Below are positions 3,882 through 63,353 of a stretch of DNA of 64,000 bases, piece after piece. Where the stretch lies: assembly GCA_963575645.1 (NCBI GenBank), contig OY754464.1:7130001-7194000 (forward strand). The letters are read 5' to 3'. Numbering within the stretch: position 1 is the stretch's first letter; each line of letters begins with the position of its first letter. This stretch comes from Xanthostigma xanthostigma (lineage: Eukaryota > Arthropoda > Insecta > Raphidioptera > Raphidiidae). The notes under the pieces were generated by a model. The model did no database searches. It was not told the DNA's origin and was given only the letters and a program-made list of their open reading frames with translations. The translations under genes were made by a program, and so were the position numbers.

Positions 3882-4134
3882 ATTCAAATCTTTGATTAAC
3901 GTCTGAATAGAACTCTTCAAATAAATAAAATTGTCGACCAATTTTTCTCAGACCAATATATTGACAAAAAATAAAAAAATAACAAATCAATACAACATAA
4001 GATGACGTTTCGATCCGGCTTTGGATCTTCTTCAGAAAATTCTAAAAAATATGATGTTGTATTGATTTGTTATTTTTTTATTTTTTGTCAATATATTGGT
4101 CTGAGAAAAATTGGTCCACAATTTTATTTATTTG
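3882..4134. mobile_element. Penelope-type foldback element, copy 1
   Basis: 253-bp foldback flanked by a perfect 14-bp TSD, AAGTACCTACTTGA (3868-3881, 4135-4148). Arms of roughly 100 bp pair almost fully and close on the hammerhead-like motif at 4004-4035. Its ends match those of the 21945-22613 element, which keeps a Penelope GIY-YIG fragment. That match is the basis for the family assignment. Confidence 0.8.
4004..4035 (-). ncRNA. Hammerhead-ribozyme-like core
   Basis: The minus strand reads CTGAAGA, then a GATCC/GGATC helix with a 6-nt loop, then GAAACGTC. This matches the hammerhead order CUGANGA, stem II, GAAA, (palindromic ACGU stem III), UH. One extra nucleotide sits between CTGAAGA and stem II. 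Flanking CAATACAACAT/ATGTTGTATTG can form a distal stem I. Activity is not established. Confidence 0.5.
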
Positions 4135-4392
4135 AAGTACCTACTTGATTATTCCTAAAAACAATCCAGGTACCTATAACTTAGGCCCTTCTCACACGAA
4201 GCTACTCAAATGAAACTAAACTGATTACTAACTAAAATCACTAACTAGTTAGTAACCAAACTTTGCACACGATGCTACTCAAATCATTGTTTAATCACTT
4301 GTTTCATTTGAGCTGCCATAATGTTTTCTGAATCTGAATCAAGTGATGAGGATATTATTTTATATTATTATAATCAAAAAAGGCAGTGACGA

Positions 4393-4644
4393 ATGAAAAA
4401 ACGCCAATGTTGGATTGATCCTTATATAGAAAAAAATTTTAATTGTAGGACATTTGTTGACGCCAAAGAGCTACAGGAAAATGATGCGAAATTTTTGGCA
4501 TTCTATAGAATGTCCAAAGAAACATTTTTAAATGTGGAAATACTGTCTCCTTTTATTCACAAAAAGAATACTACAATGCGTGAATGTGTCAGCGCTGAGG
4601 AGAGAATTTTAATAACACTCAGCCAAGTTTTTACAATGTTTTAA
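4393..4644 (+). pseudogene. Harbinger transposase N-terminal fragment
   Basis: 83-residue open frame resembling the N-terminus of HARBI1-type DDE transposases: KRQCWIDPYIEK, then FLAFYRMSKETFLNV, then AEERILITLSQVF. In the family this region precedes the DDE nuclease core, which is absent here, so the fragment cannot catalyse transposition. It lies inside the TTA-flanked element at 4184-5061 and points toward the convergent MADF fragment. The frame stops soon after the LITLSQVF helix, as expected from an internal deletion. Confidence 0.85.
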
Positions 4645-4682
4645 TATTTCAGAATCAAGTAAATACAAAATAAAAATTACTC

Positions 4683-4850
4683 TTAAACATTGTACATATA
4701 AAAATTACTTAAATTTACTTTCGCACCAACGTCATTCCACGCTTTTTCCGTCTTATCTTTTCGAGAATAATCACTTAACGTGTAATTATATAGGCAAGGA
4801 TGCCTTTCGACAGCTTCTACCAGTTTTAAATTTTGGATTGAATCAGCCAT
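4683..4850 (-). pseudogene. MADF-domain protein fragment of the Harbinger element
   Basis: 55-residue minus-strand frame starting at the ATG complement at 4848-4850. It reads LKLVEAVERHPCLYNYTLSD, then KTEKAWNDVGAKVN, the start of a MADF (Myb/SANT-like, Adf-1 type) DNA-binding domain. Harbinger elements usually encode such a second protein, which binds the element ends and helps import the transposase. Only the first half of the domain is present. A GTAAAT right after the GAK codons could be an ancestral splice donor. The opposite orientation to the transposase is the usual arrangement. Confidence 0.85.
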
Positions 4851-5126
4851 TTTTGTTGTTTTATTGGTAACTGGTTAGTAACTATAGTAGCGTGGCGACC
4901 AGCACGCCGCGTCGCTTGAAACTGATTACTAACTGGTCACAAACTGATTACTAACCGATAGCGCCGTGTGCGAACCTCCATTGAAATACTAGTGCTAGAG
5001 ACTGATTTGTAACTCGAGTTAGTAATTGGTTTCGTTTGAGTAGTTCCGTGTGAGAAGGGCCTTATACTTTAATAATAAAACTGTATAAAAGGAGGTTTTC
5101 GTGTAGATTACTTTTTTAAATGAAAC

Positions 5127-5611
5127 TAGTGCCGGATTAATCATTAGGCAGAGTAGGCAACTGTCTAGGGGCCCCGCATCAACTAGGGGCCCGTGCACGC
5201 ACCAAGAAAAAACTTTTCATTGAACGAAAATTTTATTTGTAAATTTGTATGAAATTTCCCAACAACAATATCATTTTCTTACGTTGTTTATTGTAATTTA
5301 TTGCATTTAACAAGACAAAAATTTAAAATAACTACGTCACGTCTCATTTCTCTTTCCTGACCCATCAAAAAACCTGGATCATCAATAACTATAACCTATT
5401 CATTAAGACCATTTCCGATAAAGCAAACGAGTCAGGTAAGGCGATGCTGCAGCATCTCGTCAAAGTAATCATGTTGTTACAATATCACATAAGACATTGA
5501 AGTAACAGGATGCCTGGAGCCGATCATCTGGAAGTTACTCATATCCCTTCATCAACTTGAAAAGACCCGATTGCATTGCCTAGGGGCCCGGACAGACTTA
5601 ATCCGGCCCTA
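5127..5611. mobile_element. hAT MITE, TAGTGCCGGATTAA family
   Basis: 485-bp element with terminal repeats TAGTGCCGGATTAA / TTAATCCGGCCCTA and perfect 8-bp TSDs AATGAAAC (5119-5126, 5612-5619). CTAGGGGCCC motifs repeat near both ends. No coding capacity. A truncated relative of the terminus is at about 35006-35020. Confidence 0.92.
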
Positions 5612-5819
5612 AATGAAACACATTTTTTCAAAATCAATTATATTCATTTTTTCTTTCTGTTTGTGTTTTCTACTATAACGTTTAAACCCCTAATGCGATT
5701 TGATTGAAGTTTATGAACTAAATCTGCCGCCAGCTGATAAATCCGCCTCTGGTTTCCCAATTAAACCGATTTCAAATCATGCCTTTTTGTAAATAAACTG
5801 AATCTGTAAATTCTATAGT

Positions 5820-6110
5820 TGCAGCGAAACGTACTTTCCAGAATGCATTGCGGCGGCGCCATCGACGACAGCGTTGAGTTCATGAACGCGCCGTAAAGAA
5901 AAACCGACGCCTAACGAACGTTTCCAAGCGAAAACACGAAAGCTCTTTGACGCTCGCAGAAATAATCGAACGTCGACTGGGCGGCGCGTCTGCTCATGCG
6001 CACTCTATCCAACCGCCGGGCAAAGTGACAGCAGTGCACTTTACTGTTGTAGAAGCCTGTTGTGTAGAGTTACTACCCCCTATTTACCATTCACCGGGCG
6101 TTAAAACATT
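5820..6110 (+). promoter_or_regulatory. CpG-rich putative promoter region of exon 1a
   Basis: Locally GC-rich and CpG-dense (GGCGGCGCC, GGGCGGCGCG, CCGCCGGGC) within strongly AT-rich flanks, about 0.8-1.1 kb upstream of exon 1a. No clear TATA box is seen. The promoter role is inferred from composition and position. Confidence 0.45.
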
Positions 6111-6551
6111 GAAGTGAATCGATTAATAAAATAATCACATCTATCATAAAAAAACAGATATGTAAATGATTTCATTAAGTCGAACAAAAGACGAGCTCAC
6201 ACGCTCTTTACATCGCTACAAATTCGTAGCTGAACGTAGTTAGCCAAAACCTATTGTAGATTCTATACGGATAATCTTTACGTGCTCTTTGTTAAAAAAA
6301 AAAACAATCGACAATCTGGTGTGTTAGCGAAAATTATAACCATAGCGTGATTAAAACAACTGTATACTGACTTTTTATTTTTTTTTTTAAAAACGGTAAC
6401 AACAAAAAAAATGTCGGGTCAAATAATTTGAAGTGTTTTTTTATATACAAATGGTGTATTATAATAAAAATAATTGTGTTTTGTTTGTAAAATTATAATA
6501 GTAGTTGTGAGTTGGCAGCGGGACGTGATATAATCGTTGCGTTGCTGAATG

Positions 6552-6833
6552 GATAAGTTGCGGTAAACGCCCGCTTAAATTGATAAGTTTTTCGTGCAAA
6601 ATTGCTGGCAGCGGAGCGTTAAATTCGGCTAACGCCCGATTTTGACTGATAAGTGTCGTTACGACAAACTGAAAACTTCGATTACTGCACAAATTGGTAT
6701 AAGTCTGCAAATTGATAAGTGGCTTATAATCGTTTCTTTTTTGCGAGTGATTTGTTTATAATAATTTCGCGTCGGATAAAAAGTGGCATCGCGCGGGTCG
6801 GCTGCAGTCGTGAAAGATAAGTCAGCCGATAAG
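6552..6833 (+). promoter_or_regulatory. Cluster of six GATAAG motifs upstream of exon 1a
   Basis: Exact GATAAG on the plus strand at 6552, 6582, 6648, 6714, 6816 and 6828, most followed by T. Some lie in degenerate repeats that also contain TAACGCCCG. The stretch is likely 5' UTR or proximal promoter. GATA-factor binding is a possibility, not shown. Confidence 0.45.
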
Positions 6834-6931
6834 TGAGAGGTAGTAGGTTGTGTTGTATATAATTTTCCACACAAGACGGGTTTATCAAAGCGGTCGTCAC
6901 CACGTTTTGCGCGGAAGTGACAAGCAGAGTG

Positions 6932-7049
6932 ATGGGGTGTACCACATCAGCGGAGGAGCGCGCCGCGATCGCCAGAAGCAAGCAGATTGAGAAAAATCTC
7001 AAGGAAGATGGGATACAGGCGGCCAAGGACATTAAACTCCTGCTCTTGG
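6932..7049 (+). CDS. Galphao: G-protein alpha subunit Go class, alternative first coding exon 1a
   Basis: Encodes 39 codons plus one base: [20 protein letters not shown], then [19 protein letters not shown] and a split Gly. It ends at a donor G|GTATGT (GT at 7050). The N-terminus carries Gly2, the N-myristoylation site, and Cys3, the usual palmitoylation site. The amphipathic N-terminal helix binds G-beta-gamma and the membrane. Alternatives such as Gi diverge more, especially in the KNLKEDGI part, so Go is favoured. The ATG has G at -3 and +4. The phase (1) matches exon 2 at 58931. The protein would couple seven-helix receptors to effectors at the plasma membrane. This exon is GC-richer than exon 1b. 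Insect Go is known to use two alternative first exons. Confidence 0.95.
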
Positions 7050-7109
7050 GTATGTTCTTCTTTCTTTACGAATACTAGCTGTAATTCACCCTGCTAATTT
7101 TTTAACCGA

Positions 7110-7560
7110 CGAAAAACAAAAACGGAGGAGGTTCTCAATTCGACGCGTATATTTTTTTTTTTTTATTTTTTTTTTTTTATTTATTTTTTTTTTTTTATTT
7201 ATGTATGACCACGCATAACTTTTTACAAAGTAGTCCGATTTTGATAATTATTTTTTTGTTTGAAAGGGTATACCCCGAAGTTGGTCCCATATAAATTTGG
7301 TAAAAAAATTCCAACCCTAAGGGTAGGAAAACAGGGGATGATTGATTGTTCACTCACTGATTGTAATGTATGACCACATATAACTTTTTACAGAGTGGTC
7401 CAATTTTGATAATTATTTTTTTATTGGATAGGGTATACCTCGAGGCTCGTCTCATATAAATTTGGAAAAAAAACTCCTACCCTAAGGGTGGGAAAATAGG
7501 GGTGATTTATAGTTCACTCACAGATTTTCATGCTTTGTGTATTACAATTATAAATTATAT
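7110..7560. repeat. T-rich tract and two tandem copies of a ~168-bp repeat
   Basis: A (T)n-rich tract at 7149-7200 is followed by two diverged units starting TGTATGACCAC near 7202 and 7370. Both contain GGGTATACC and CCCTAAGGGT. The leading ACCGACGAAAAAC and GGAGGAGGTTCTCAATTCG recur as a fragment near 30690. Confidence 0.75.
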
Positions 7561-7581
7561 AGCCACAAAAAATTATAAAAT

Positions 7582-7935
7582 AAAAACTTTTTAACAAAAA
7601 AATTAAACCGCCGAAAAACTGAAAAGCAAAAAATAATAAATCTTTTTATTTAACTAAGTAGTTGAACGTACGTGACAGTCTAGTATATCTAAGTAATTTT
7701 GAGTCGGCGTCAACAATCCTTCGCCGGAAATCTCTGAGAGTTCACGAGAGATCTCTAATTTGATTTGGTTATTTCTTTTAGTGATCTTTGTTCATTGATT
7801 GTTTGACGCCGACTCAAAATTACTTAGATATACTAGACTGTCACGTACGTTCAACTACTTAGTTAAATAAAAAGATTTATTATTTTTTGCTTTTCAGTTT
7901 TTCGGCGGTTTAATTTTTTTGTTAAAAAGTTTTTT
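7582..7935. repeat. Long inverted repeat, ~135-bp arms
   Basis: Arms 7582-7716 and 7796-7935 are nearly perfect reverse complements and include GAACGTACGTGACAG / CTGTCACGTACGTTC. An ~80-bp spacer carries GAGAGATCTCT. A foldback transposon is likely; I could not define its TSD. Confidence 0.85.
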
Positions 7936-8168
7936 ACACGGTATGAACGTAAATAACGAATAACTTTTTACAGTGTAAGAACCTGTTTAATTTTATTTAA
8001 TGTGATGTTTTTGTAACACACATTTTACGTAAATTTTATCTTGTTCCACTCCTTCTCCGTATGACCTTTAACTACTTATATGCTAAATCTGACACTCCTC
8101 CTTGCGCGCAATATGCTTAAATAGGGATCCACAGTTTTTATCTTCACGTATTAATATACAGGTGTTTA

Positions 8169-8830
8169 TTGAGTGCCGATACTTAAGGGTGTGAATCCTT
8201 GGGTTATTTTACGAAGAAAAGTTAATATCAACATATATCTTAAACCTCTTAATTTTTGAGCTACAGGGTGTTAAAGTTTTAAGAAAAAGAAAAATATAAC
8301 TTTTTATCATAATTTTTTTTCACTCTTAGATATTTTTATGAAATTTTGAACATACCTTTTAATCACTAAGGAGCATTTTTGGACGTAGAAGATTTTTTTA
8401 AATTTTTACCAGTGAAGTCCGTACGGGGTATGCACTGAATATTTTTAAAGAAAAAATGGTACGCCATGATTTTTCTAAAAACCACAATTATTTTTGAAAT
8501 CCTCATTTATTCTGGAGCAAATTTGGTCCATAGACTTACTTTCGTGCCACGCACCGTTTTCGCGTAAAAAATAAAAACCAAAAATATTAGTAGGCTGGGT
8601 AAAACTTCAATGACTTGAAGAAAAAAAAATGCTCCTTAATGATTAAAAGGTGTGTACAAAATTTCATAGAAATATCTAAGAGTGATAAGAAAATTATGAT
8701 AAAAAGTTATATTTTTCCTAAAACTTTAACACCCTGTGGCTCAAAAATTAAGAGGTTTAGGGCATATGTTGATTTTTTTTTTCTTCTTAAAATCACCCAA
8801 GGATTCACACCTTTAAGTATCGGCACTCAA
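8169..8830. mobile_element. Foldback DNA element with ~220-bp terminal inverted repeats
   Basis: 662 bp bounded by TTGAGTGCCGATACTTAA and its inverted copy. It is flanked by TTA on both sides (8166-8168, 8831-8833), suggesting a Harbinger-type TSD. The arms are about 85-90% alike by eye. The 8615-8854 frame is only the translated right arm. Confidence 0.75.
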
Positions 8831-8913
8831 TTAATAAGCATTATGTATAATTAGCTATATATTTTTTCGTAATTAGTTTTGTACCAAATATTAAAGTTAA
8901 GAGAAGGTTTGAT

Positions 8914-9063
8914 AAAGGAACAATTTATATACAAAGTTTACCAATGTTTTCCTTGTAGCTGACGTTTCGAAAAAAATATTTTCATCTTCAGGGATATAAA
9001 TTTTTCGAAACGTGGATTACAAGCCAAACATTGGAAAGCTTCTCTGTTCAAATTGTTCCTTTA
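8914..9063. mobile_element. Penelope-type foldback with different arms, copy 2
   Basis: Outer arms AAAGGAACAATTT / AAATTGTTCCTTT and inner arms around CCAATGTTTTCCTTGTA / TACAAGCCAAACATTGG close on a hammerhead-like motif at 8961-8991. The layout is as at 3882-4134 but the arm sequences differ. Confidence 0.6.
8961..8991 (-). ncRNA. Hammerhead-like core
   Basis: The minus strand reads CTGAAGA, T, a GAAAA/TTTTC helix, then GAAACGTC. Same organisation as at 4004-4035, with an unrelated stem II. Immediate stem I pairing is weak. Confidence 0.4.
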
Positions 9064-9107
9064 CTTACAGTTAGGCAGTGTGGTCATACAAAAAAAAAAA
9101 TTGTGAA

Positions 9108-9307
9108 TAGTTTTTTATTCAACTCGAAATTTGCTATCGGAAACTGCTGGGGTATATTTTTTTGTACTTTAAAACCGGATGTGTACATTCATTTTTTTTT
9201 TAATTGACTACATATATTTTTTCTTATATTCTCTGAATCTCCATTTTTTTTGCTAAAATATACCTCAGCAGTCTCCGATAATAAGTTCCGAGTTTAATAC
9301 AAAACTA
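9108..9307. repeat. Inverted repeat element, ~50-bp arms
   Basis: TAGTTTTTTATTCAACTCG at the left pairs with CGAGTTTAATACAAAACTA at the right. The arms continue through CTGCTGGGGTATATT / AATATACCTCAGCAG. Interior AT-rich, no coding. Confidence 0.7.
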
Positions 9308-9420
9308 TTCAGGATTTTTAGAGTAACAGAATTCGCTCTTGCAAAGAAGGTGAATTTTAAAATCGATTGTAAAATGAAAAAGTTTTTTATTTCTAATAAG
9401 CAGGCCAATTTATCTATATA

Positions 9421-9902
9421 CAGATTGTATCAAATCAAAACAGTCCATAGAACATTCTGTGTGTAAGACAGAGACGATATTATATAAAGCACTAAAGCAG
9501 TAAGTAAGAATGAGATAAATGATCGCTAATAGCTAGTTACTGTGGTTATACTATCTGATAGTATCGCCCTTGTTTTCTATACAGTAAAAATCACAATTTT
9601 ATCAAATGTCAGTATTCACTAGTGAAATTATTGATAAAATGGCTATTTATACTGTTCGGGAAAAAATCCAAATAATTAAATGCTTTTATGGTGGTAATTC
9701 AACCGCCAACATAATAAATTTATTTGTAGTTGTTTTAATTGATAAAAAGATTTACAGTGTACGTAATTATTTATTTACGTAACCACAGTAACTATATTAG
9801 CAATCATTTATCTCATTCTTACTTACTGCTTTAGATCTTTATATATCGTCTCTGTCTTACACACAGAATGTCCTATGGACCGTTTTGATTTGATACAATC
9901 TG
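9421..9902. mobile_element. Tc1/mariner-type MITE with TA target site
   Basis: 482 bp with terminal repeats CAGATTGTATCAAATCAAAA / inverted copy, extending about 120 bp. TA lies on both sides (9419-9420, 9903-9904). Internal sequence keeps a short helix-turn-helix-like frame at 9639-9782. Confidence 0.8.
9639..9782 (+). pseudogene. Helix-turn-helix N-terminal fragment of a transposase-like protein
   Basis: 47-residue frame starting MAIYTVREKIQIIKCFYGGN, followed by a loop and an NIINLF helix. The pattern is like the DUF4817/HTH start found in many insect Tc1/mariner-related proteins (YTxxEKxxIIxxFYxGN). It lies between the terminal repeats of the TA-flanked MITE, so it is probably the surviving DNA-binding start of the parent transposase. 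The catalytic domain is absent and the frame runs straight into the right terminal repeat. Confidence 0.5.
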
Positions 9903-9914
9903 TATACGAGTATG

Positions 9915-10787: not shown

Positions 10788-11018
10788 TAGTCTATAATAA
10801 ACGTCCACCAATCTTCTAACGAGACCCGTTTTACGATTGCAACGTTAATTATTGAATGAATACATATTAGTTAAATGTATTCAAACAAAACACCCCACTG
10901 TTTTTATTGGCAACTTGTTGAGGAATCTGTTGAAAAGTCAGCGTGCATTTCGTGATCCATTATTTTTTTATCGAGCGAATATTGTAGTTGTGAGAAAACT
11001 AGACTAGCAGGTAGGTAC

Positions 11019-20982: not shown

Positions 20983-21622
20983 CTAGCGGTCCCGCCCGGT
21001 TTCACCCGGGTGCAAAAGAACGAATGGGGAAGAAAGGGACATGAGTACGCACATTCATCTTAGTTTAGGTACCGAGATGAATGTTGTGTCCAAACTTCAT
21101 AATGATCGGCGTTACCGTTCAAAAGTTTTTGTCGTAGTTGTAACAGTTTTCAAATGAGCTATTAATTAGAATTATTTAATTTTAATTAGTCGTAATAAAA
21201 TTTTAAAAAATTTAAATGTAAGCTTTAGAAGAAAGCAATGTAGTAAATAAAAAAAAAAAAACATTAAAAACATATACGACCATTGTGGGGCTCGAACCCA
21301 CGACCCTGAGATTAAGAGTCGCGCACTCTACCGACTGAGCTAACCGAGCTAGTACGTGCGGCGCTAATATTGGCATATTCAGTTAAGGCATTTCACCTGA
21401 ATATAAGTATAATATGGTGAAAAATGTTGATTGACATTCTGCAACATTTTTCATTGATTTTCCGCTCGTATTAGTCGTAGCGTGATATTTTATAGCCTAT
21501 AGCCTTCCTCGATAAATGGGCTATCCAATAAAAAAAAAAATTTTCAATTCGAACCAGTAGTTCCTGAGATTAGCGCGTTCAAACAAACAAACAAACTCTT
21601 CTGCTTTATATATTAGTATAGA
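20983..21622 (-). mobile_element. Helitron family A, complete copy with tRNA-Lys-like insert
   Basis: On the minus strand it starts TCTATACTAATATATAAAGC and ends GGGCGGGACCGCTAG, inserted between A and T as Helitrons require (20982, 21623). The GCACCCGGGTG subterminal palindrome is present. No Rep/helicase is encoded, so it is non-autonomous. Confidence 0.9.
21277..21349 (-). tRNA. tRNA-Lys(CTT)-like sequence inside a Helitron
   Basis: 73 nt, better preserved than the copy at 16769: TAGCTCAGTCGGTAGAG, CTCTTAATC anticodon loop, and GGGTTCGAGCCCCA T arm. The acceptor stem pairs poorly and the flanks are Helitron, so it is more likely a passenger than a working tRNA gene. Confidence 0.6.
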
Positions 21623-22032
21623 TGTACAGCAAGTATACCGCAGGAACTCGTCATATTATAAAATTACAATAAAACCTACGAAACAAATCCATCATTCATA
21701 AAATCTTCGTAAGAATAAAAACATTTGTAGAGGAGAAAATTTCTTACTTTCCTTCTGAAAGCAACCAAACTTAAGTTCCTTATTTCAGAGGGTATAGTTT
21801 GTTAAAAAATTTAATTCCTATATAATTAACGCCATAAGTGGAAATTCTTGCTCTGTGAAACGGTATGAGTAATTTGTACTTGTTGCGAGTGCAATGTTCA
21901 TGTATTTCTAATAAATTGTTAATGCTTTATCCAATAATTTTTTCAAGTAATAAAATTGTCAACCAATTTTTCTCAGACCGAACGATATATTGACAAAAAA
22001 TGATAAAATTACAAATCAATATAACACAAAAT

Positions 22033-22064
22033 GACGTTTCGACCCGGATTTGGATCTTCTTCAG
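22033..22064 (-). ncRNA. Hammerhead-like core in the Penelope element
   Basis: The minus strand reads CTGAAGA, A, GATCC/GGGTC helix (one G-U pair), then GAAACGTC. It is almost identical to 4004-4035; the one stem II change keeps pairing. Confidence 0.5.
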
Positions 22065-22248
22065 AAATATCTAAAAAATATAAAAAATAATTAATAATAA
22101 GTTATTTATTAACTAATCGATTGTACGTAAAATTGAAAGTTTGAAAGATTAAAACATAATGAAAAATTAATAACAAACAAAATTTATAACTCGTAGTCAT
22201 GGATATCAAAGTACCCATAAAGAAAAAATTATTTGAAAAAACAAAATA

Positions 22249-22524
22249 TTATTTCAAAATAATATCATAAATATTACTTAAATTTTCCGTATCTAATTGA
22301 GCATTAAGAGAGTTTTTATTAGATTTTATATATAACATTTCCGAAATACTTCTTTTAAAATAATTACTTTCATTATCTAAAATTTTAACACTATCCCAAT
22401 TAATTTTATGGTCGTAATCAATTTTATGCTTAGTTACGACATTATGTTTATCAGGGAGTAGTTTATAACTGTTTTGATGCTCTTTAACACGTGTTTTAAG
22501 TGCTCTTTTTGTTTGCCCAATCAT
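22249..22524 (-). pseudogene. Penelope-like element GIY-YIG endonuclease, C-terminal fragment
   Basis: 91 residues starting at the end of the GIY-YIG motif: IGQTKRALKTRVKEHQNS, then an insert (LLPDKHNVVTKHKIDYDHKI), then NWDSVKILDNESNYFKRSIS and EMLYIKSNKNSLNAQLDTE. This is the tail of the endonuclease that Penelope-like retroelements carry after the reverse transcriptase and use to nick the target. The Arg of the KRxLKTR helix is kept. The N-terminal GIY half is gone, because the frame fuses directly to terminal-repeat sequence, so the protein cannot work. The 13-bp TSD around the whole element agrees with Penelope insertion. Confidence 0.88.
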
Positions 22525-22626
22525 TTTTTGTCAATATATCGTTCGGTCTGAGAAAAATTGGTTGACAATTTTATTTACTTGAAGAGTTCTATTCAGACGT
22601 TAATCAAAGATTTCAATAATTTTTTC

Positions 22627-25280: not shown

Positions 25281-25491
25281 GTTGGAAGATTAAAGGATGA
25301 ATCCTGGTGGCATAGGATCAATGAACTAAGCAAATAGGTACTGATTTTTTTTATTGCATTTTATTGTCTGTCTTCTAGATTTTCTGAAGATGGCATCAAG
25401 TTTGCCGAATCGTCAGGCAATAAAAAAACCTTCAGTATTTGCTTAGTTCATTGATCCTATGCCACCAGGATTCATCCTTTAATCTTTCAAC
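25281..25491. mobile_element. Foldback with hammerhead-like apex, copy 4
   Basis: Arms GTTGGAAGATTAAAGGATGA / inverted copy pair over about 65 bp and close on CTGAAGA...GAATCGTC at 25384-25414. Same organisation as the Penelope-type foldbacks, with a third arm sequence. Confidence 0.65.
25384..25414 (+). ncRNA. Degenerate hammerhead-like core
   Basis: CTGAAGA, T, GGCA/TGCC helix, then GAATCGTC in place of GAAACGTC. The A-to-T change would disrupt the first pair of stem III. Confidence 0.35.
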
Positions 25492-29344: not shown

Positions 29345-29455
29345 GGAGATTTATTTGGTTGAGGAACAATTGAAAATAAGCTTTACCAGTGTATCGCTTG
29401 TGGCCAACGTTTCGAAAAATATATTTTCATCATCAGGGCCTCAATGCAAGTTAAG
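29345..29455. mobile_element. Penelope-type hammerhead-like module without long arms
   Basis: GAGGAACAATTGAAAATAAG is similar to the left end of the 8914 module and leads into the motif at 29406-29436. The right arm is short. Confidence 0.45.
29406..29436 (-). ncRNA. Best-formed hammerhead-like core
   Basis: The minus strand reads GGCC, CTGATGA, T, a GAAAA/TTTTC helix, GAAACGTT, then GGCC. The two GGCC blocks pair to give a 4-bp stem I placed exactly where hammerheads need it. ACGT is the palindromic stem III and T the predicted cleavage base. One extra T precedes stem II, as in the other copies. Confidence 0.5.
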
Positions 29456-35310: not shown

Positions 35311-35885
35311 ATATATATATTTAATAGATTGCGGATACACTAGCGCCTCCTGTACCTTTTAGAAGCCATTTTGTACGTGGAAAACGCCGTAAAAAGCGCG
35401 CGAGATTCAAAAATATTAATTGTTTTATAATTATTCATATTGAGAAAAACAACAAAACTCACAGTAAATAGTGATATTTCGCTCCAAAACCTATTTTTAT
35501 ACTGAAACGTTTCAAAAATTACAAAATTGAGCATAAATATAATGTAAAAGCTTAGAACATTTTACATTGTGAATTTGGCATCAAGGTTGACAAGCATTGA
35601 TGCCAATCTGACAATGTAAAATGTTCTAAGCTTTTATATTATATTTATGCTCAGTTATGTAATTTTTGAAACGTTTCAATATAAAAATAGGTTTTGGAGC
35701 GAAATATCACTGTTTACTGCGAGTGTTGTTGTTTTTCTCAATAAAATCATATTATAAAATAATTAGTATTTTTGAATCTCGCGCGCTTTTTACGGCGTTT
35801 TCCACGTACAAAATGGCTTCTAATTGGAACCATTCCGCATAATGCTCAAGGATAGGCATCCGCTATCTATTAATATATATATATC
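35311..35885. repeat. Giant palindrome, ~265-bp arms
   Basis: Left arm about 35311-35578 and right arm about 35605-35885 match closely. Both include GCGCGCGAGATTCAAAAATA or its inverse, and GAAACGTTTCA. The central hairpin has TTGGCATCAA / TTGATGCCAA. The palindrome ends ~340 bp before exon 1b. Confidence 0.88.
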
Positions 35886-36345: not shown

Positions 36346-36401
36346 GTAACGAATTGCTTTTGTTTAAAAAAAAATGAAATGTCGGTATTATTTACTAAAT
36401 C

Positions 36402-36574
36402 ATTGATTAACGTCTGAATAGAACTCTTCAAATAAATAAAATTGTCGACCAATTTTTTTCAGACTATATACCTATATTGACACAAATAAAATAATTAAAA
36501 AAACAATAATATAATTTTATTTCTGTCAATATATAATCTGAAAAAAATTGGTCGACAATTTTATTTATTTGAAT
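36402..36574. mobile_element. Penelope-type foldback, core deleted
   Basis: Arms TTAACGTCTGAATAGAACTC...AAATTGTCGACCAATTTTT and the inverted right copy match 3882-4134. The hammerhead-like centre is replaced by AT-rich sequence. It begins ~57 bp downstream of exon 1b. Confidence 0.75.
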
Positions 36575-44428: not shown

Positions 44429-44559
44429 TATGTAATTTCTAAGTTTTTTATGGACATGCCATATACTCTTTTGTCAATGTGGTAAAATAATAATTATTAT
44501 TATTATTTGAATTTGACTCTATTCAATAAATAGAGTAACTGTGATCCATTGAAGTTAAT

Positions 44560-44659
44560 GATAGAGTTTTGGAAAGAATTCCGTGGCATAAGGATCGAAA
44601 ATGAAGCATTGCTTCATTTTCGATCCTTATGCCACGGAATTCTTTCCAAAACTCCTATC
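44560..44659. repeat. Near-zero-loop hairpin, 49/50-nt arms
   Basis: Arms 44560-44608 and 44610-44659 are exact except for one extra base, with a single-nt loop at 44609. Confidence 0.93.
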
Positions 44660-44692
44660 AATAATTATTATTATTATAGTGTGAATCGGGCC

Positions 44693-45405: not shown

Positions 45406-45622
45406 GTCTAGACTTATGGTCCGTATTTATATCCGTATATATTTCATGTAAAAACTGTAGCCAAGTCTGGCATTGATATCCCACTATAGTGGCCATATTC
45501 ACCAAACCTAAGTACCTAGTTATTTATTCGGGTCATTTGTTCTTATCCTCTGAATAAATAGCGATATTTCAATTCACCAATCATAATTATGTTTACTGCA
45601 AGTATGAATCTATTCTGTCTTA
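45406..45622. repeat. Shared repeat, second copy
   Basis: 45489-45620 matches 40970-41100. It is interrupted by the foldback at 45623 and continues after 45851. Confidence 0.65.
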
Positions 45623-45837
45623 TATAAATAAAATTATCGACCAATTTTTCAGGCAATATATTAACAAAAGATATAATTAATACATTAATGTTTCGATCCG
45701 GATTTGGATCTACTTCAGAATCTGGATCGAAACGTTAATGTATTAATTATATTTTTTGTTAATATATATTGTCTGAAAAATTGGTCGATAATTTTATTTA
45801 TTGAAGAGTTCTAATCAGACGTTAATCAAAGATTTGA
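45623..45837. mobile_element. Penelope-type foldback, 13-bp TSD
   Basis: 215 bp flanked by perfect CTATTCTGTCTTA (45610-45622, 45838-45850). The arms match the family and close on a mutated hammerhead-like core. Confidence 0.9.
45687..45718 (-). ncRNA. Mutated hammerhead-like core
   Basis: The minus strand reads CTGAAGT (last A lost), A, GATCC/GGATC helix, then GAAACATT. Changes in the first core block and in stem III should inactivate it. Confidence 0.4.
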
Positions 45838-47988: not shown

Positions 47989-48409
47989 GAGTATTCGTCC
48001 CTGCAAATACCCCCTGCACCCTTCATCTCAAATCTTTTCCCCTCGCCTAAAAACGGTTCGCGCTCTCCCGACGCTATTTTTAAAGCTAGAGGGTTCTGGT
48101 AAACGCCAAATGAAAGACAAAGAATCAGACTACAGATCCTTCAGGCGAATTTTTTGAAAAAAAATTCCTGAAAAAACTTACAACCTTTTGAAAAAAATAA
48201 TAAGTTACGTAATATTTCACACGTAGGCGAAACTGTTTTTCAAAAAATTCGCCTGAAGGATCTGTAGTCTGATTCTTTGTCTTTCATTTGGCGTTTACCA
48301 GAACCCTCTAGCTTTAAAAATAGCGTCGGGAGAGCGCGAACCGTTTTTAGGCGAGGGGAAAAGATTTTTAGATGAAGGGTGCAGGGGGTATTTGCAGGGA
48401 CGAATACTC
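47989..48409. mobile_element. piggyBac-type foldback MITE at TTAA
   Basis: 421 bp with TTAA on both sides (47985-47988, 48410-48413). ~165-bp arms (GAGTATTCGTCCCTGC / inverted) are almost perfect. The interrupted sequence AGTTTAATCAAAG is seen uninterrupted in related repeats, supporting precise insertion. Confidence 0.88.
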
Positions 48410-52957: not shown

Positions 52958-53340
52958 CTAGCGTTTCGGCCCGGTTTCACACGGGTGCGATAGATATAAT
53001 TCTGCAAAATGTATTTCGTTTGTGGCCCGGCGTCTGAACTAAATTTGAGAAAATTGCAAGATCTAACAGATTTCGCTATTTGGTACTAAACAGTGTTGTT
53101 TGTTTGCTTCTGAACTAATAGTTCAGAAGCAAACAAACAACTGAGTTCTGATAGAACAGATGTCGTTACGTGTTACTAAAAAATGTTTTTTGAGAAAATA
53201 CCGTAATTTTGGACTAAATATTTTATAAAAAATATCTTATAGTGTAAGTTGCATCATGGAAGACGCATTTACAAAACTTCATTAAAATCTGTTTCGGAGA
53301 TTAGCACGGCCAAAATAATGTGACACGGGAATTTTAAATA
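52958..53340 (-). mobile_element. Helitron family B, inverted copy
   Basis: The 3' end appears as CTAGCGTTTCGGCCCGG with ACGGGTGCGATAGATAT. Family blocks GCAAAATGTATTTCGTTTG and GTGACACGGG follow. It contains an AGTTCAGAAGCAAACAAAC duplication. Confidence 0.78.
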
Positions 53341-56709: not shown

Positions 56710-57519
56710 CTTCCATAACACATTCGAAAGCTGCATACAAAGTGAGATAGTTATACAATAATTCTACACCAGTTGCTATGACGTGTATTTGTGATTTTTG
56801 ATTGGTTAGATTCAAAAAATGACAGTGAAAGACGAAAAGTAGTTCCATTTTTTTTCACGTATTTTTGAGGAAATTTGTGAATAATCCGCAAAGTTTTTTT
56901 TTTTTGAACGTCAAAATTTAGCGTTTTCTATGACTTAAAAAAAAAATTTCAAAATTTGGGTGCATAGTGTTATCGTACTGGACCCAAGAAATAGTGTTAA
57001 AGATATTATATAATAGTGAAATAATTAAATAGTGTATCTTCACAGAAAATCATTTGAATTTATTAAAGATAATTCTTGAAAACTGTATAAACATTTCTCA
57101 ATTTATTAATACATCTAATATGGTTCTCTGTACTGATTTTTGACCCGAGTTTGGGTTTTACGCTTTTGGTATGCCTCGAGTTTAGGCTTCAAAGCGTTTC
57201 TTCGTTATTTTTTTGGGAAATTAATCACTGAACATTTTTTAGAACGATGTTTAAGAATGGCGAATATAATAAAATTGATAATAAAAAATATTTGTTATTG
57301 TTTTGTTTCTATACGATTTATCTTTTTATGAAGGAAAATTTTAGTAGTCACACATTTTTGAATATCTAAGTGAAGCTATGTAATTATGGACCCATATGGC
57401 GATAGTTGAGATAAATCAATTACCTAGCAGTAGTGGTTAAGATAACAGACCGATAACGCCGCAGGTCTAGTTTATCGGCTGTTAAGCCATTGTCACACGA
57501 ATCGACTATTAATGGCTAA
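56710..57519. other. AT-rich intron, no gene
   Basis: Nothing recognised. Confidence 0.4.
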
Positions 57520-58206
57520 GAGCTGGCTACGGAGAAAATGGGTGACTCGGTGCAGAGCTGAAAATTTGCAGAATAATAGGAAATAGTATAAGTAAGTAGG
57601 GGAAAAATTGCCAGAAGGCTAGGCGGAAGATAAAGAGCCGCCAGAAAGCGCTAATGTTGCGAAAAATCAGTGCACTTCTGGCAATTTCTATACTTATTCT
57701 GTAATTCAAAACTAGATTATATATTATACAACATTATATAGTTATAAGGGCATACTGAAAAATCAATACATTCGACAATTATTCAAAATTATTAATGACA
57801 TTTTGATAGAAATAAAATTAATCGTCATATATTTTCATTAATAAAATTACGTTGTTATAACAACGTAATTTTATTAATTAATTTAATTTTATTTCTATCA
57901 AAATGTCATTAATAATTTTGAATATTTGTCGAATGTAATTATTATATCATGTTTGAATTTTCAGTATGTCCTTATAACTATATAATGTATAATATATATA
58001 ATATATAATCTAGTTTTGAATTACAGAATAAGTATAGAAATTGCCAGAAGTGCACTGATTTTTCGCAACATTAGCGCCTTCTGGCGGCTCTTTATCTTCC
58101 GCCTAGCCCTCTGGCAATTTTTTCCTACTTACTTGTACTATCTCCTATTATTCTGCAAATTTTCAGCTCTGTATACCGAGTCACCCATTTTCTCCGTAGC
58201 CAGCTC
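57520..58206. repeat. ~690-bp palindrome with zero spacer
   Basis: Left arm 57520-57857 and right arm 57858-58206 meet at ACGTTGTTATAACAACGT without a loop. The arms are nearly identical, apart from small indels such as a GTATA insertion near the right end. The outermost GAGCTGGCTACGGAGAAAAT also occurs in the Helitron B units at 10.2-10.7 kb. Confidence 0.92.
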
Positions 58207-58216
58207 TCCGTCTATA

Positions 58217-58631
58217 AGGCTGGATTTGCGCTAAATTTGACTACTAGCTTCCTAGCGCTGGTTTTCTCAATTGATTTTATGGGCTCGCTTCACACGAGAC
58301 GTCTTTTCAAGCATGTTCTGGTGCGCGCGCAGTGACAGTTCAAATATAAACACAGAGCAAAACGTGTCTGTAGTCTGACTGAGCAGAATGACGTCATGTT
58401 GGTTTGTGGGCGTTTGTTCATGTCGTCCACGTGACAAGATACTGTTTTCTGATTGGCTCTTGCTCAGAGCAAGCAGAGGACCTGTAGCAAGAAAAATAGT
58501 CCCTGTTCTAATTTTAAAATCTATCTTGTGAGCTAGCAGGCGAGCCCGCAGTGACGTCATTTCCAGCCTCGTACCCAGCCTGCCGGCCAGCAGAAGTCAA
58601 GCAGTGTTTTCAGCCTCGTGTGTAGCGGCCT
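58217..58631. mobile_element. Harbinger-type MITE family H, copy 6
   Basis: Left flank ATA, right flank TTA (58632-58634). Ends AGGCTGGATTTGC... and CTCGTGTGTAGCGGCCT. Two TGACGTCA sites near 58388 and 58552. It ends ~300 bp before exon 2. Confidence 0.87.
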
Positions 58632-58744
58632 TTACGCTATAATAGCTATAATATATTTTGTCAATACGTGAAAAGATTAAAATGCCGTAAACAGGCTGCA
58701 ATATAATTTAAATTTTAAAAGTAGCTGTTTTGATTTTTACAACC

Positions 58745-58815
58745 ACTGTAATCAGGGCCGTAATTAGCTTTTTGGGGCCCTGGGCAAGACCTCATCCCAG
58801 CCCCCCTCCTACATT
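58745..58815. repeat. hAT-type terminus fragment
   Basis: CAGGGCCGTAATTAGC with GGGGCCCTGGGCAAG is typical of one hAT end. The partner end is not seen. Confidence 0.4.
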
Positions 58816-58930
58816 AAATTTTATGAATTAAATAAAGCTACTTATTTCCCCAAAATAATAGTTTTAATCGGTAATACAACCAGAAAAATAATTTGTAATA
58901 AAATATTAATTAATTTATTCTTTGTTTCAG

Positions 58931-58973
58931 GAGCTGGAGAATCGGGGAAAAGTACCATAGTAAAACAAATGAA
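58931..58973 (+). CDS. Galphao: G-protein alpha subunit Go class, exon 2 (P-loop)
   Basis: 43-nt exon between acceptor TTTGTTTCAG and donor AA|GTAAGT (58974). It starts in phase 1, joins the split Gly of either first exon, and reads (G)AGESGKSTIVKQM(K). This is the G1/P-loop (GxGESGKS), which binds the nucleotide phosphates. The Lys and the following Ser (Mg2+ ligand) are intact, so the GTPase start is functional. A 43-nt second exon with these borders is the usual structure in Gi/Go-class genes. Exon 3 must lie beyond 64000. Confidence 0.96.
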
Positions 58974-59308
58974 GTAAGTTTTTTCCCTGTATTTGCATTA
59001 TTTTAGAAATATAAAGTGACCGTCGAATGTTTGATCATTTTTAGTTTTGTTTAGCGACTGTTCCTCCTGTAATTTTTGTTAGTGACTTGTTGAAATGTCA
59101 CGGAAGTGATGTAAAGCTCTACTTTTAGCTATATTTCATTCTCATTTGTAAGCTGTCAACATTTTTTGAGGTTATAATATATAGCTGTACTTTTTAATTT
59201 TTGAATAAGTCAGTCTCATTTTAAGCTTATAAATATATCGAGTTGGGAGACATCCTATCGCTGTAGAACAAATTCATTATACTTAAAAACTCTTTTTTAC
59301 TCTTTAAT
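58974..59308 (+). other. Galphao: Start of intron 2, no repeat recognised
   Basis: Donor GTAAGT followed by ordinary AT-rich sequence up to the large transposon. Confidence 0.7.
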
Positions 59309-59814
59309 TAAGGTGACCAACTATTTTTTGTTCAAAAAGAGTACACTTTGCAAGTATTTCATAGGTGAAAAAAAAGAAGAAACCAGTGGGAGTATATGAT
59401 CAAGTAATTCAAGAATTACAAGGCGCGAAATTTTACAGCATATACCCCGGTGTTTTGTTTGAAAATCGGTGTATATATTTAACGACACTTGGAGCTTAAT
59501 ATATAACTTAATTTACTTAATCTAAGAAAAAAATAACAGTTGAAAATAATGAAACACAGAAAGGAAAAAAATAATTTTAATAATTTCATGGTTCTCTATG
59601 TAATATGTTATTATGTCATGCAAAAATTAAACAAAGAACTACCTAACTAACATCTTCAGAACAAATGAACAACAGATTTTTTTTCAAAATAGTTCTGAAA
59701 TTATGAGTTTAGAAAAAAAAAATCATAACTTTCTTGTAAAAACAGATAGAAAAATAAACCGTTATGAAAACTACCCAATTATTATATAAAAACAACTTTA
59801 TATAGCATATATGC

Positions 59815-60150
59815 AGTGAAACGCGATAGGGCAGAGGTGGAGTTTTTAAAAAAATAATTCCGGGGTGAACGATAAACGGGTATGCGAATTGTAATTCCGG
59901 CGTGAACGATAAAGGGGTATGCGAATTGACTCGCACTTAAACGGGAAGGGGCAAATGTGGAGTTTTTAAAAAAACAATTCCGGGGTGAACGATAAACGGG
60001 TATGCGAATTGTCTCGCAGTGAAACGGGAAGGGGCAAATGTGGAGTTTTTAAAAACACAATTCCGGGCTGAACGATAAAGGGGTATGCGAATTGTCTCGC
60101 AGTGAAACGGGAAGGGGCAAATGTGGAGTTTTTAAAAAAACAATTCCGGG
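59815..60150. repeat. 83-bp tandem array
   Basis: GGGAAGGGGCAAATGTGGAG recurs near 59944, 60026 and 60110, with an altered first unit at 59815. Shared with 56394-56709. Confidence 0.9.
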
Positions 60151-60152
60151 GT

Positions 60153-61033
60153 AAAAAACTAAGTCCACCATCTTTAGAAGTCTGCCATATTGAATTTAGA
60201 ATGACGTCATCGTATTTTTCGAGTTGTTCTCAGCAAGCCCTTTCATTTGGTACCCATATTGTAGGAAAGCATAAAAAACTTAGTCCGCCATATTGAATTT
60301 AGAGTAACGTCACTTTTATTTCGAGTTGTTTTCAGTTAGCCCTTTTATTTGATACCCATATTGTAGGAAAGCATAAAAAACTTAGTCCGTCATCTTTAGA
60401 AGTCCGCCATATTGGATTTAGAGTGACGTCACTTTATTTTTCGAGTTATTCTCAGCAAGCCTATCATTTGATACCCATATTGTAGGAAAGCATAATAAAC
60501 TAAGTCCGCCATCTTTAGAAGTCCGCCATATTGGATTTAGACTGACGTCACTTTATTTTTTGAGTTATTCTCAGCAAGTCCTTTCATTTGACACCCATAG
60601 TGTAGGAAAGCATAATAAAATTAGTCCGCCATCTTTAGAAGTCCGCCATATTTGATTTAGAGTGACGTCACTTTATTTTTTGAGTTAGTTTCAGTAAGCC
60701 CTTTCATTTGATACCCATATTGTAGGAAAGCATAAAAAACTTAGTCCGCCATCTTTAGAAGTCCGCCATATTGGTTTTAGAGTGATGTCACTTTATTTTT
60801 CGAGTTATTCTCAGCAAGCCCTTTCATTTGATACCCATATTGTAGGAAATCATAATAAACTTAGTCCGCCATCTTTAGAAGTCCGCCATATTGGATTTAG
60901 AGTGACGTCACTTAATTTTTCGAGTTATTCTCAGCAAGCCCTTTCATTTGATACCCATATTGTAGGAAAGCATAATAAAATTAGTCCGCCATATTTAGAA
61001 GTCCGCCATATTGGATTTAGAGTGACGTCACAC
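60153..61033. repeat. 120-bp tandem array with one CRE per unit
   Basis: About eight units with TCCGCCATCTTTAGAAG, GTCCGCCATATTGG, and a TGACGTCA or one-base variant at 60202, 60305 (variant), 60424, 60543, 60663, 60783 (variant), 60903 and 61023. The frames at 60102-60296 and 60782-61039 are repeat translations. Confidence 0.93.
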
Positions 61034-61284
61034 AGCTAACCATGCATTGTCATCCAAACTAAACGTGTATACAAATTTTCATCTCAATCGGTTGAAGATA
61101 TCTGCTTCAAAATTACCGAAGGCATTCTAGTCAGTCACTTAGTAATTCAGTCGCTTACTTATTAATTTAGTCACCCAACTATTATTTTAATATCTCAAGT
61201 TATTAAAACAGTCTCTCATCATCAGTCACCAAGTTTTTTTTTATTCGATCGTTTTATAATTCCCCTATAAAAAACAACTATGGC

Positions 61285-61720
61285 ATGTATCACTTTTGCG
61301 CATGCGCCGATTTTTCCCAAAAATTATACAAAACTCTTGTAAAAATAGATCGAATAAAAAACCGTTATGAAAAGTATACCATTCTTATATACAAACGACT
61401 TTATAACTTATACCTCTTCTGCGCATGCGCCGACTTTCCCTCAAAAAAAAAACATTTTACAAAACTTTCTTGTAAAATAGAATAAAAAACTATTATTAAA
61501 AGTACACCGCTATTATTAAAAAAAAAAAAAACAACGACGACGGCATATATCTCTTGCGCATGCGCCGATTTTCCCCAAAAAATTTACAAAAATTTCTAGT
61601 AAAAATAGATAGAAGAATAAATCGTTTTAAAAACTATATTATTATTATATAAAACAACATTATAAGAGATATATTCTTTTACGCATGCGCCGATGTTCCC
61701 CAAAAACAATAGGCCACTTC
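61285..61720. repeat. ~130-bp tandem array with GCGCATGCGCCGA
   Basis: GCGCATGCGCCGA or a close variant at about 61297, 61420, 61556 and 61681, each followed by CCC(C/T)AAAAA and an AAAACTxTTGTAAAAATAGAT block. The same block is inverted near 15795. Confidence 0.85.
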
Positions 61721-61730
61721 ATATTTGCAT

Positions 61731-62440
61731 ATCAAACATCCTCCCAAAATTTGGTTTCAATCCGATCATCCGTGGTGTCAGAATGGTAAGAAATGTCAAA
61801 AGTGACGTTTGCATTGTCAAAGTATTATGTTCTAATAATTAGTTATTCAAATTATTAACTCAGAAGGCGTTGCATTTCACATATATTCGAAACGGCATCC
61901 GTTTTTGAACAAATGCTATCTTTTAATTTCATTATTGTAATAAATAATATTATCGACCAATTTTATTTGAAGACAGAACATACGCAATTTTTAAATTGCC
62001 ATGTTAAGCCGTGCAACAGAGAGAGATAACCGAAAGATGTTTGCCATCGGTTATATCAAATTGAATTTATTTCTATATAAATGTGTATAAAAAAACTGTT
62101 TGGGCATTTTCTGTTGTACGAAACTTATGTAAAATTTTCTCCTCTTTCGTTTAAGACAGGTTTCGAGCCGATCCGATTTAAAATGAGCGAGCTATAAGCA
62201 AAAAACTTCGTTTTTCCTAAATTTCTCCCCTCTGGGGCCAAAATTCAAAAATCGGGCGACGTTAGGATCTAAGTTACCCGGAGACGAATCGATCAAAAAA
62301 AAGTTTTTTAAAATCGGTTAAGGCGTTTAGGCTGTACGCGTGACACAAAAAAGTGGGACGTACAGATTCACAGATTCACAGACGTACAGACAAAGCGAGT
62401 ACATATAGGCGCTTTAGCTTACGCTATTCGCGCCTAAAAA
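61731..62440. repeat. Dispersed repeat also found at 23265-23700
   Basis: Shares CTCCCAAAATTTGGTTTCAA, GAAATGTCAAAAGTGACGTT and TCTCCTCTTTCGTTTAAGAC with the 23-kb locus. The 3' part runs to GCGCTTTAGCTTACGC. Confidence 0.75.
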
Positions 62441-62874
62441 CGTACATACTACGCATGCGTCAAGACTGTCAAGCATGCCGTACATACTGCACATCAAAGA
62501 TCAGCCTGGGGATTACGTACACAAAATATATTGGAGAGATAGATATATCCATCTCTTTTCACAAATGTAATTTTGACGTTGTTAGAAAAAGAGGTCTGTA
62601 GTATCTATCTCTAGAGGTGCATAATACGGCCTCTCAGTTGTGTCGGAAACGGCAGCCATATGTGCGCGCGAAATTCAAATCACTGTCAAACTCGTGTCTG
62701 GTGTTTGCCCTGTCCTCTGACGTGCCGGAAACGGCAAGCAATAAGCGCGCGTGAAATTCAAATCACTGTCAAAATAATTTTAAATATTTAATTAATAAAA
62801 TTGAAATAAAATAATCTAAAAAAATGTTTTAGAAATACAAATGAGTATAAAATTATACAAATCAGTACTTTCAC

Positions 62875-63055
62875 CAGTGGCGGATCCACGGGGGGGGGGG
62901 GTTTCGGGTTCAAACCCCCCCCTTCCAGAGAATCAAAAATCCCAAATTAAAATCTTACTGGGCAATAAAAAAAAGCTTTTCATGTTTTTCATGAATTCTC
63001 CGGAAAAAATTTTCAAGACCCCCCCCCCCTTGCCGTAATCCTGGATTCGCCACTG
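62875..63055. mobile_element. hAT MITE, CAGTGGCGGATCC family, copy 3
   Basis: 181 bp with TSDs ACTTTCAC / ACTTTCAG (7 of 8). Nested near the right end of the 3.8-kb transposon. Confidence 0.88.
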
Positions 63056-63229
63056 ACTTTCAGAGTACAGGTTTGAAAAGAGTACGGTTTGCGAAAAAAG
63101 AGTACAAAACTCAGTAAATGAGTATAGTTGGTCACCTTACTTTAATGCACATTGCTGTAAAAGCGTTTTTCTTAAGTTTTTTTTAACTATAATATTGTAT
63201 AACAAAAATATTAGGAGCACTGTGGTTTG

Positions 63230-63353
63230 AATCTAATAAAAAATAGAGTTTAGTGTATTGCTGAAGATGAGAGCATAGCTCTCGAAATGTACATCCACTA
63301 ATAAACTTGTTGTGGTAAGAAGTAACTACTAACTATTCTCTATTTTTTATTAT
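63230..63353. mobile_element. Foldback with hammerhead-like centre, copy 7
   Basis: TAATAAAAAATAGAG / CTCTATTTTTTATTA arms enclose the motif at 63261-63295. Same layout as the Penelope-type modules. Confidence 0.6.
63261..63295 (+). ncRNA. Hammerhead-like core with strong stem II
   Basis: CTGAAGA, T, GAGAGC/GCTCTC helix with an ATA loop, GAAA, palindromic ATGTACAT (stem III), then C as cleavage base. A TG/CA pair plus TTAG/CTAA can form stem I. Confidence 0.5.

Follow-up and report, generated by a model that had tools for sequence, protein, structure and literature searches.

Here, we describe hammerhead-ribozyme-like motifs in a stretch of 64,000 nucleotides (nt) from the raphidiid insect Xanthostigma xanthostigma (contig OY754464.1, positions 7,130,001 to 7,194,000; hereafter the window), analysed within its 623-Mb assembly of 28 contigs. 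These motifs are probably small hammerheads of the pseudo-long terminal repeats (pLTRs) of Penelope-like elements, and the foldbacks around several of them are probably single insertions, each primed from both ends of the target. What carries this reading is an asymmetry between the two arms of such insertions: over two element families, families A and B, one arm ended at the nearer and the other at the farther of two fixed sites in 71 of 73 head-to-head pairs.

Paired ends in two element families

Sixty stretches were fetched around a subset of the listed strict-core places of the motif (defined below), all on contig C1. Together with the window, these loci held 92 relaxed motifs, 62 of which were assigned to family A by their stem and loop pattern. 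The conserved stretch of this family runs from ~72 nt before the CTGA of the core to either +119 or +152. Its two fixed 3' ends thus lie ~33 nt apart, ~88 and ~121 nt downstream of the predicted cut, and we take them to be the sites at which reverse transcription starts (short and long site, respectively). Besides the 60 ribozyme-chosen stretches and the window, the family A sample comprised 20 loci drawn from 100 listed places of the tail that the two sites bound. Family B, with GATAC in stem II and a tail different from that of family A, was sampled in 20 loci plus L012, L052 and the window. Two arms were counted as a pair if the outer end lay at consensus position 112 or beyond (family A) or 108 or beyond (family B) on both, with a gap below 700 nt and a BLAST expectation value (E) of at most 1e-3. 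Very short arms are lost under this rule, and L091 is excluded by its gap. Slightly different earlier rules had given 45 pairs, 44 of them short/long, and are superseded by the final count.

Mapping of family A onto the loci repeatedly placed a minus arm ahead of a plus arm, with the 3' ends facing outward. There were 59 such pairs in 51 loci (the window taken as one), 46 of them ribozyme-chosen and 13 from the 20 loci selected by a 28-nt tail word. The two arms ended at different sites, one short and one long, in 57/59 pairs (45/46 ribozyme-chosen, 12/13 tail-chosen). The same held for 14/14 family B pairs from 12 loci, three of these pairs being a single tandem triplication in L063. Which side bore the long end varied, with left/right counts of 26/19 and 5/7 for the ribozyme-chosen and tail-chosen pairs of family A and 6/8 for family B. 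A target duplication (score of at least 10) enclosed 41/59 family A and 11/14 family B pairs, as compared to 2/295 and 1/70 for mismatched flanks. Most duplications measured 12-15 nt, 13 nt being the commonest length.

The junctions at the centres of the pairs nearly all differed. Inner 5' coordinates, taken as BLAST ends, formed distinct combinations in 58/59 family A and 12/14 family B pairs. Among the 38 family A pairs with 5' ends inside the consensus, 13 had junction gaps of -4 to +3, and the remainder ranged from -44 to 432. Neither end was favoured with respect to arm length: in family A, the long-site arm was the longer in 21 cases, the short-site arm in 24, 11 were equal and one had both arms at the limit, the corresponding first three figures for family B being 3, 7 and 4. 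In two small insertions, L096 and L101, both arms start at position 90, within the near-palindrome AAAATTGGTCGACAATTTT, and 12/155 family A arms have their 5' end at 88-95.

The outward orientation recurred beyond the mapped pairs. For the tail, of whose 2,758 places 100 were listed, neighbours within 1.2 kb in this listing formed 23 outward and no inward pairs, and among the listed matches to the element's endonuclease (see below), pairs within 7 kb were outward in 15 cases and inward in one. Each of eight inward neighbours in the fetched loci (six of family A, two of family B) joins one insertion to the next or belongs to the L063 repeats. The latter (1113-1746 of that locus) consist of a family B head-to-head insertion in three tandem copies, repeating every ~216-220 bp, and resemble a small hammerhead-bearing satellite.

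The start of the ribozyme was contained in only one arm of 35/59 family A pairs, in both arms of 14 and in neither of 10; for the 13 pairs not chosen for the ribozyme, these numbers were 5, 3 and 5. The ribozyme comes to lie at the apex of a foldback because one arm stops short, between ribozyme and tail, and the other includes the ribozyme. Its apical position requires no special function of the foldback, and the foldbacks themselves can be explained without dimers.

Ribozyme fold and carrier element

The strict core, CTGANGA-N12-30-GAAACGTC, occurs 6,322 times in the genome versus 88 times in a reversed control, and the CTGANGATG form 673 times versus none. We built a covariance model from 14 cores with 6-nt flanks, all from loci outside the window and sorted by eye into eight families, its structure consisting of a 3-bp stem I and a 5-bp stem II that follows one extra base. 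In this alignment, 85.6% of the cells were paired and 39 cells were changed on both sides, values each reached by 0/500 shuffles. The covariation score of 0.802 (shuffled mean 0.232; 0/500 shuffles as high) fell to 0.08-0.19 when the 3' partner was slid by one to three columns. The bare count of pairs with a double change (7/8) was not significant, being reached in 136/500 shuffles. Over 98 distinct cores, four positions of stem II were paired in 83.9% of cases at an offset of +1 (shuffle maximum 64%), compared with 0.402 and 0.374 at offsets 0 and 2 (shuffle maxima 0.427 and 0.353). The covariation of stem II that had been claimed from the window thus reappears as compensatory change at other loci.

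That a constant extra nucleotide precedes stem II, as stated in the original prediction, is correct for its position and incorrect for its identity: T accounts for 61 of 99 distinct cores, A for 35 and C for three, the main family having A. For the non-T cores, which are mostly of family A, pairing of stem II (0.776) merely equalled the shuffle maximum because these cores share one stem. Stem I was paired at 0.75 over 4 bp when each stem II type contributed one representative (eight in total, some of them close kin; 0/2000 shuffles). Over all 59 distinct cores, which are dominated by family A, it was paired at 0.508, below the shuffle maximum of 0.521, so that stem I of family A is to be regarded as weak. 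The predicted palindromic stem III was borne out by inspection: it comprises 2 bp, A-C/G-U, with ACGU being self-complementary between two molecules, and CGT followed by C, T or A comes after GAAA in 52/59 distinct cores. Taken together, the covariation supports the identity of the motif as a small hammerhead with putative self-cleavage. Numerous small hammerhead variants associated with Penelope and cleaving as dimers were reportedly the subject of work by Lunse, Weinberg and Breaker in 2017, judging from its title, and Cervera and De la Pena are said, likewise at title level, to have treated small variants of Penelope-like elements in 2014. Going by the 2017 title, the extra nucleotide and the dimer-type stem III would be features of that published class.

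The carrier of family A is best seen in locus L103, where an 822-amino acid (aa) frame reads YHRYVDDIF and YIGQTKRALK. A tail directly precedes the ATG of this frame, and a hammerhead plus tail follows its stop codon. The fetched stretch ends short of the upstream hammerhead; pLTR flanks and a tail of 30-40 nt are present. Sequence upstream of the ribozyme codes for the last part of a GIY-YIG-like protein both in L004 and in the 22033 copy of the window. In the window, this is a candidate C-terminal end of the Penelope GIY-YIG endonuclease frame (IGQTKRALK...IYDIILK*; 22249..22521 on the minus strand, approximate limits), a truncated copy that yields no GIY-YIG match of its own. The best Pfam match of the L004 fragment is PF01541 (E 4.3e-4; 21.0 bits, below the cut-off of 22.6), and the motif VYKISCEDC...YIGQT in the endonuclease region points, by inspection, to GIY-YIG as well. 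A genome search with the endonuclease protein returned 3,165 first-look candidates, 150 of which were scored, with 151 matches listed. The matches listed come from several contigs. Many of them tie in score, at 198.5 or 210.4 bits, and two of the open frames are 822 aa long, a pattern suggestive of young Penelope subfamilies.

The succession pLTR, open reading frame (ORF), pLTR is the plan of Penelope-like elements (PMC11167929; also the accessible text of PMC3846280). The arrangement in L103 fits this plan and supports, at the level of sequence, an assignment of the main family to these elements. The proposed association of the hammerheads with Penelope is upheld by a YVDD/GIY-YIG frame lying between a tail and a hammerhead plus tail. 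A coding role for the hammerhead-tail region of family A was discarded, as the ATG of the main frame in L103 lies downstream of the tail. We also noted that TACTAATTAATTTTTATATTTTTTAG, ~31 to 7 nt before CTGA in the family A consensus, resembles a branch point, pyrimidine tract and 3' splice site.

Hammerheads in Penelope elements are established knowledge, and the accessible text of PMC6155905 describes them as minimal and usually without helix III; the cores presented here likewise lie at Penelope ends and have almost no helix III, and in the present genome they carry an extra A in the main family and reach several thousand copies. The closest comparison is offered by Poseidon of Anolis carolinensis (PAc). 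Like family A, it has a hammerhead upstream of two start sites bounding a 30-40-bp tail, and it combines GIY-YIG with a reverse transcriptase, both of which are putative in family A, both-strand cleavage and extension having been assayed for PAc (PMC11167929). The two differ in where translation begins: the PAc ORF starts at stem II of the hammerhead (PMC11167929), whereas the 822-aa frame of family A has its ATG after the tail and, in copies of families B, C and D, translation from the ATG ahead of stem II would meet a stop within 4-16 codons. A start codon, which explains the extra nucleotide in PAc, was rejected as its general reason because of these early stops and because the main family has A at this position. 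Retrozymes and animal type I hammerhead elements, non-autonomous retroelements that likewise carry hammerheads (accessible text of PMC4918200 and PMC7229834), differ from family A in that the latter encodes a putative Penelope protein of its own. Since coding copies exist, a retrozyme reading is unnecessary.

Hammerheads and insertions in the window

Searching the window with the covariance model, as the original prediction had proposed, was done without filters and with E-values to be read as rough. Seven of the eight sites at which a hammerhead order had been listed were recovered (E 3.9e-11 to 1.1e-7; next match 0.25). The eighth, 35993(-), has four bases between CTGACGA and GAAA, lacks a stem II and scored E 8.3, so that the claim does not hold there. 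The core expected of a hammerhead, with the strands CUGANGA and GAAA, a three-stem junction and H17 before the 3' strand of stem I, is intact at five of the eight sites. Direct reading gives the order CTGANGA, one extra base, hairpin, GAAA and CGU/H at 4004(-), 8961(-), 22033(-) and 29406(-), and an intact core order with UGUA at 63261(+). Core substitutions affect the remaining two: 45687(-) reads CTGAAGT for CTGANGA, the final A being replaced by T (E 5e-8), and 25384(+) reads GAAT for GAAA. The loose pattern CTGANGA-N6-30-GAAA discriminates poorly from chance within the window, with seven matches against a shuffle mean of 2.98 and 3/100 shuffles reaching seven. Neither in the window nor in three short stretches did Rfam (release 15, gathering score and E of at most 10) report a hammerhead; its hammerhead models probably call for a longer stem III. 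At E of at most 10, it matched long hairpins of the window to microRNA and other families, matches we regard as chance.

Three family A insertions in the window contain a ribozyme. The first (3883..4137, minus strand) is head-to-head, with arms at 3883-4052(-) and 4055-4137(+) covering consensus positions -17..152 and 38..120. It is flanked on both sides by the 14-nt target duplication AAGTACCTACTTGA, and the hammerhead at its apex (3998..4041, minus strand; E 3.9e-11) has an intact core and predicted cleavage after the C at 4004. The second (21942..22616, minus strand) has arms at 21942-22136(-) [-72..119] and 22520-22616(+) [60..152] and the 13-nt target duplication CAATAATTTTTTC. GIY-YIG coding sequence precedes its minus arm, and its hammerhead (22027..22070, minus strand; E 8.1e-11) has an intact core and one G-U pair in stem II. 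The third (45618..45837, minus strand) is again head-to-head, with a minus arm of -54..121, a plus arm of 62..151 and the 13-nt target duplication CTATTCTGTCTTA; it holds the hammerhead with the A-to-T change (45681-45724, minus strand). Two further head-to-head insertions lack a ribozyme: one of family A (36397..36573; arms 43..149 minus and 51..119 plus), without a target duplication at the threshold used, and one of family B (44504..44664; arms 64..168 minus and 59..117 plus). A lone 26-nt piece of a family A end (consensus 90..115, 92% identical) was seen at 61939-61964(-).

As for the other sites, the 8961 hammerhead (8955..8997, minus strand; E 1.4e-8) belongs to the GAAAA/TTTTC family, with an intact core and a weak stem I, and sits in an eroded foldback (8934-8979 / 8996-9041, 78% complementary). 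A foldback at 25281..25491 (plus strand; 70-nt arms, 90% complementary) contains the degraded GAAT hammerhead (25378-25420; E 1.1e-7), and no direct repeat was found around it. The short element at 29406 has a hammerhead with a 4-bp GGCC/GGCC stem I and an intact core (29400..29442, minus strand; E 2.1e-9). Another short element (63188..63363, plus strand), lying between the 13-nt repeats TATAATATTGTAT, holds a hammerhead with GAGAGC/GCTCTC as stem II and an intact core (63255-63297, plus strand; E 4.1e-8).

An apical position in a long foldback was proposed for most copies. Four sites, 4004, 8961, 25384 and 45687, lie in foldbacks with 46-89-nt arms. At 22033, the arms are 515 nt apart, 63261 has only 21-nt arms 77 nt apart, and 29406 is apical in no inverted repeat among the five longest listed in its surroundings. 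The proposed duplications of 13-14 bp were likewise recovered in part: they are present, at 13-14 nt, at 4004, 22033 and 45687 and as the 13-nt repeat around 63261, and 29406 has an 11-nt match only. Other long inverted repeats of the window (35352-35830, 48066-48329, 9423-9900, 3125-3193 and 53082-53149), several of them with weak matches to microRNA families of Rfam, showed no match to family A or B ends. Finally, a tRNA-like sequence at 21277-21349(-), scoring 38.9 bits by Rfam and not called by ARAGORN, is possibly a tRNA-derived repeat.

Proposed priming from both target ends and its alternatives

From the outward arms, target duplications, differing junctions and short/long asymmetry observed at these loci, we infer a two-primer mechanism. 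The element RNA would be held close to the two sites where synthesis starts, and each end of the broken target would prime reverse transcription on it, from +152 in one case and from +119 in the other. Two complementary DNAs (cDNAs) would then converge, halt at positions of their own and be joined, sometimes with an overlap of a few bases; the arms of L096 and L101 look as if two cDNA ends had annealed in the near-palindrome. In the Anolis system, the purified Penelope protein acts on both target strands, cutting and extending each of them, and has two start sites between which the tail lies (PMC11167929). According to the accessible text of PMC3846280, Penelope elements of Adineta vaga also have head-to-head inverted pLTRs, with a 31-bp tail on one, and a short target duplication that encloses several copies. 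Differences to that system, again within the accessible text, are its few copies, target duplications of 8-10 bp with some copies lacking them (here mostly 12-15 nt), a proposal of self-priming and a tail termed optional, whereas in our pairs the long end is found on exactly one arm in 71/73 cases (PMC3846280).

Several observations weigh against two-ended priming. L051 is long/long and L094 borderline, with an outer end at 135; 18/59 family A and 3/14 family B pairs have no target duplication at the threshold used; and the junction coordinates are BLAST ends, with 14/59 family A pairs having an arm at the consensus 5' limit. One-sided insertions exist too, such as L093 with its perfect 13-nt duplication. 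The arms of ten aligned pairs are mostly alike in subfamily, which self-copying would produce as well. At E of at most 0.01, Pfam returned no match of any kind, reverse transcriptase included, for the whole 822-aa frame, and its PDB match to an RNA-directed DNA polymerase is weak (E 0.0061), so that the protein assignment rests on motifs and context. In addition, no difference in start site between strands was seen for PAc in vitro, meaning that an obligate split is not predicted from that system (PMC11167929).

The self-priming proposed for A. vaga, in which one cDNA or antisense RNA would bend back and serve as its own template, yielding a head-to-head repeat, would account for the likeness in subfamily and for the palindromes described at inverted junctions in that species (accessible text of PMC3846280). 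It could also draw on the partner arm being the best match in 11/31 pairs tested, with a median of two better matches; similarity between arms gave no decision between one RNA and two. A copied arm should, however, end where its template ends, whereas nearly all pairs end at two different fixed sites, and the arms are truncated independently, with no rule as to which is longer. This asymmetry favours priming from both target ends, and we regard self-priming as unlikely. Sequential nested insertion, with a second Penelope copy landing beside or inside the first because its ends are preferred targets, gains from the usual occurrence of tandem pLTRs, from the AT-rich sites favoured by Penelope endonucleases and from the Drosophila virilis enzyme, which needs the tail for recognition (PMC11167929). 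Nonetheless, it is very unlikely, given that a single target duplication surrounds the pair in 41/59 cases and that the arms point outward, and it does not predict the short/long split. Short palindromic units with target duplications are numerous, as would be expected of a non-autonomous foldback family, akin to miniature inverted-repeat transposable elements, whose mobile unit is the completed palindrome, tipped by the hammerhead. With nearly every family A junction distinct, arm lengths varying and the same ends found on copies bearing the endonuclease frame, this account is hardly credible.

A further alternative concerns the cores themselves, which might be relics devoid of ribozyme function and kept only as part of a region for reverse transcription or protein binding. 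The arm at 4004 begins exactly after the predicted cut and had been considered a footprint of cleavage, but in the larger sample only 1/195 arms does so (positions 31-33; 1/155 in family A, 0/40 in family B). The majority of loci had been selected because they contain a full ribozyme, so that a fairer denominator is the set of arms that stop 3' of CTGA; among these, the count is 1/77 (family A 1/65, family B 0/12), with 0/18 in the tail sample; no cleavage footprint is thus seen. This absence, together with the weak stem I of family A next to the core, speaks for relics, and it agrees with the finding that Anolis hammerhead mutants still insert in vitro (PMC11167929). On the other side, covariation of stems I and II between families is confined to the hammerhead register, and the Anolis relative cleaves once its protein is added (PMC11167929). 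We therefore consider loss of function rather unlikely; the ribozyme may act on the transcript, e.g. by separating tandem units, without setting the 5' end of the insertion.

Penelope hammerheads and head-to-head Penelope ends are already published. We found no paper stating an obligate rule of one tail per pair or two-ended priming, in a search that lay mostly outside subscription papers, and this silence is a weak sign of novelty. Both-strand extension is known from Anolis and a strand-specific start was not seen there, so that the short/long division is not a known fact; the division observed here is, in view of the in vitro result, a claim to test.

With these reservations, we lean slightly towards the view that Penelope integration can be two-ended with a division of labour that is fixed: the long site would serve one chromosome end and the short site the other, as though two reverse transcriptases formed an asymmetric pair with one start site apiece. 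The near-absolute short/long split provides a simple quantitative test, which plain self-priming fails, and the thousands of copies in this genome make end use, junctions and target duplications countable. The scarcity of arm ends at the predicted cut narrows the range of possible roles for the ribozyme. If our reading is true, where the inserted DNA ends would not be determined by the hammerhead, and the 'optional tail' of Penelope elements would in fact be obligatory, marking one end of every two-ended insertion.

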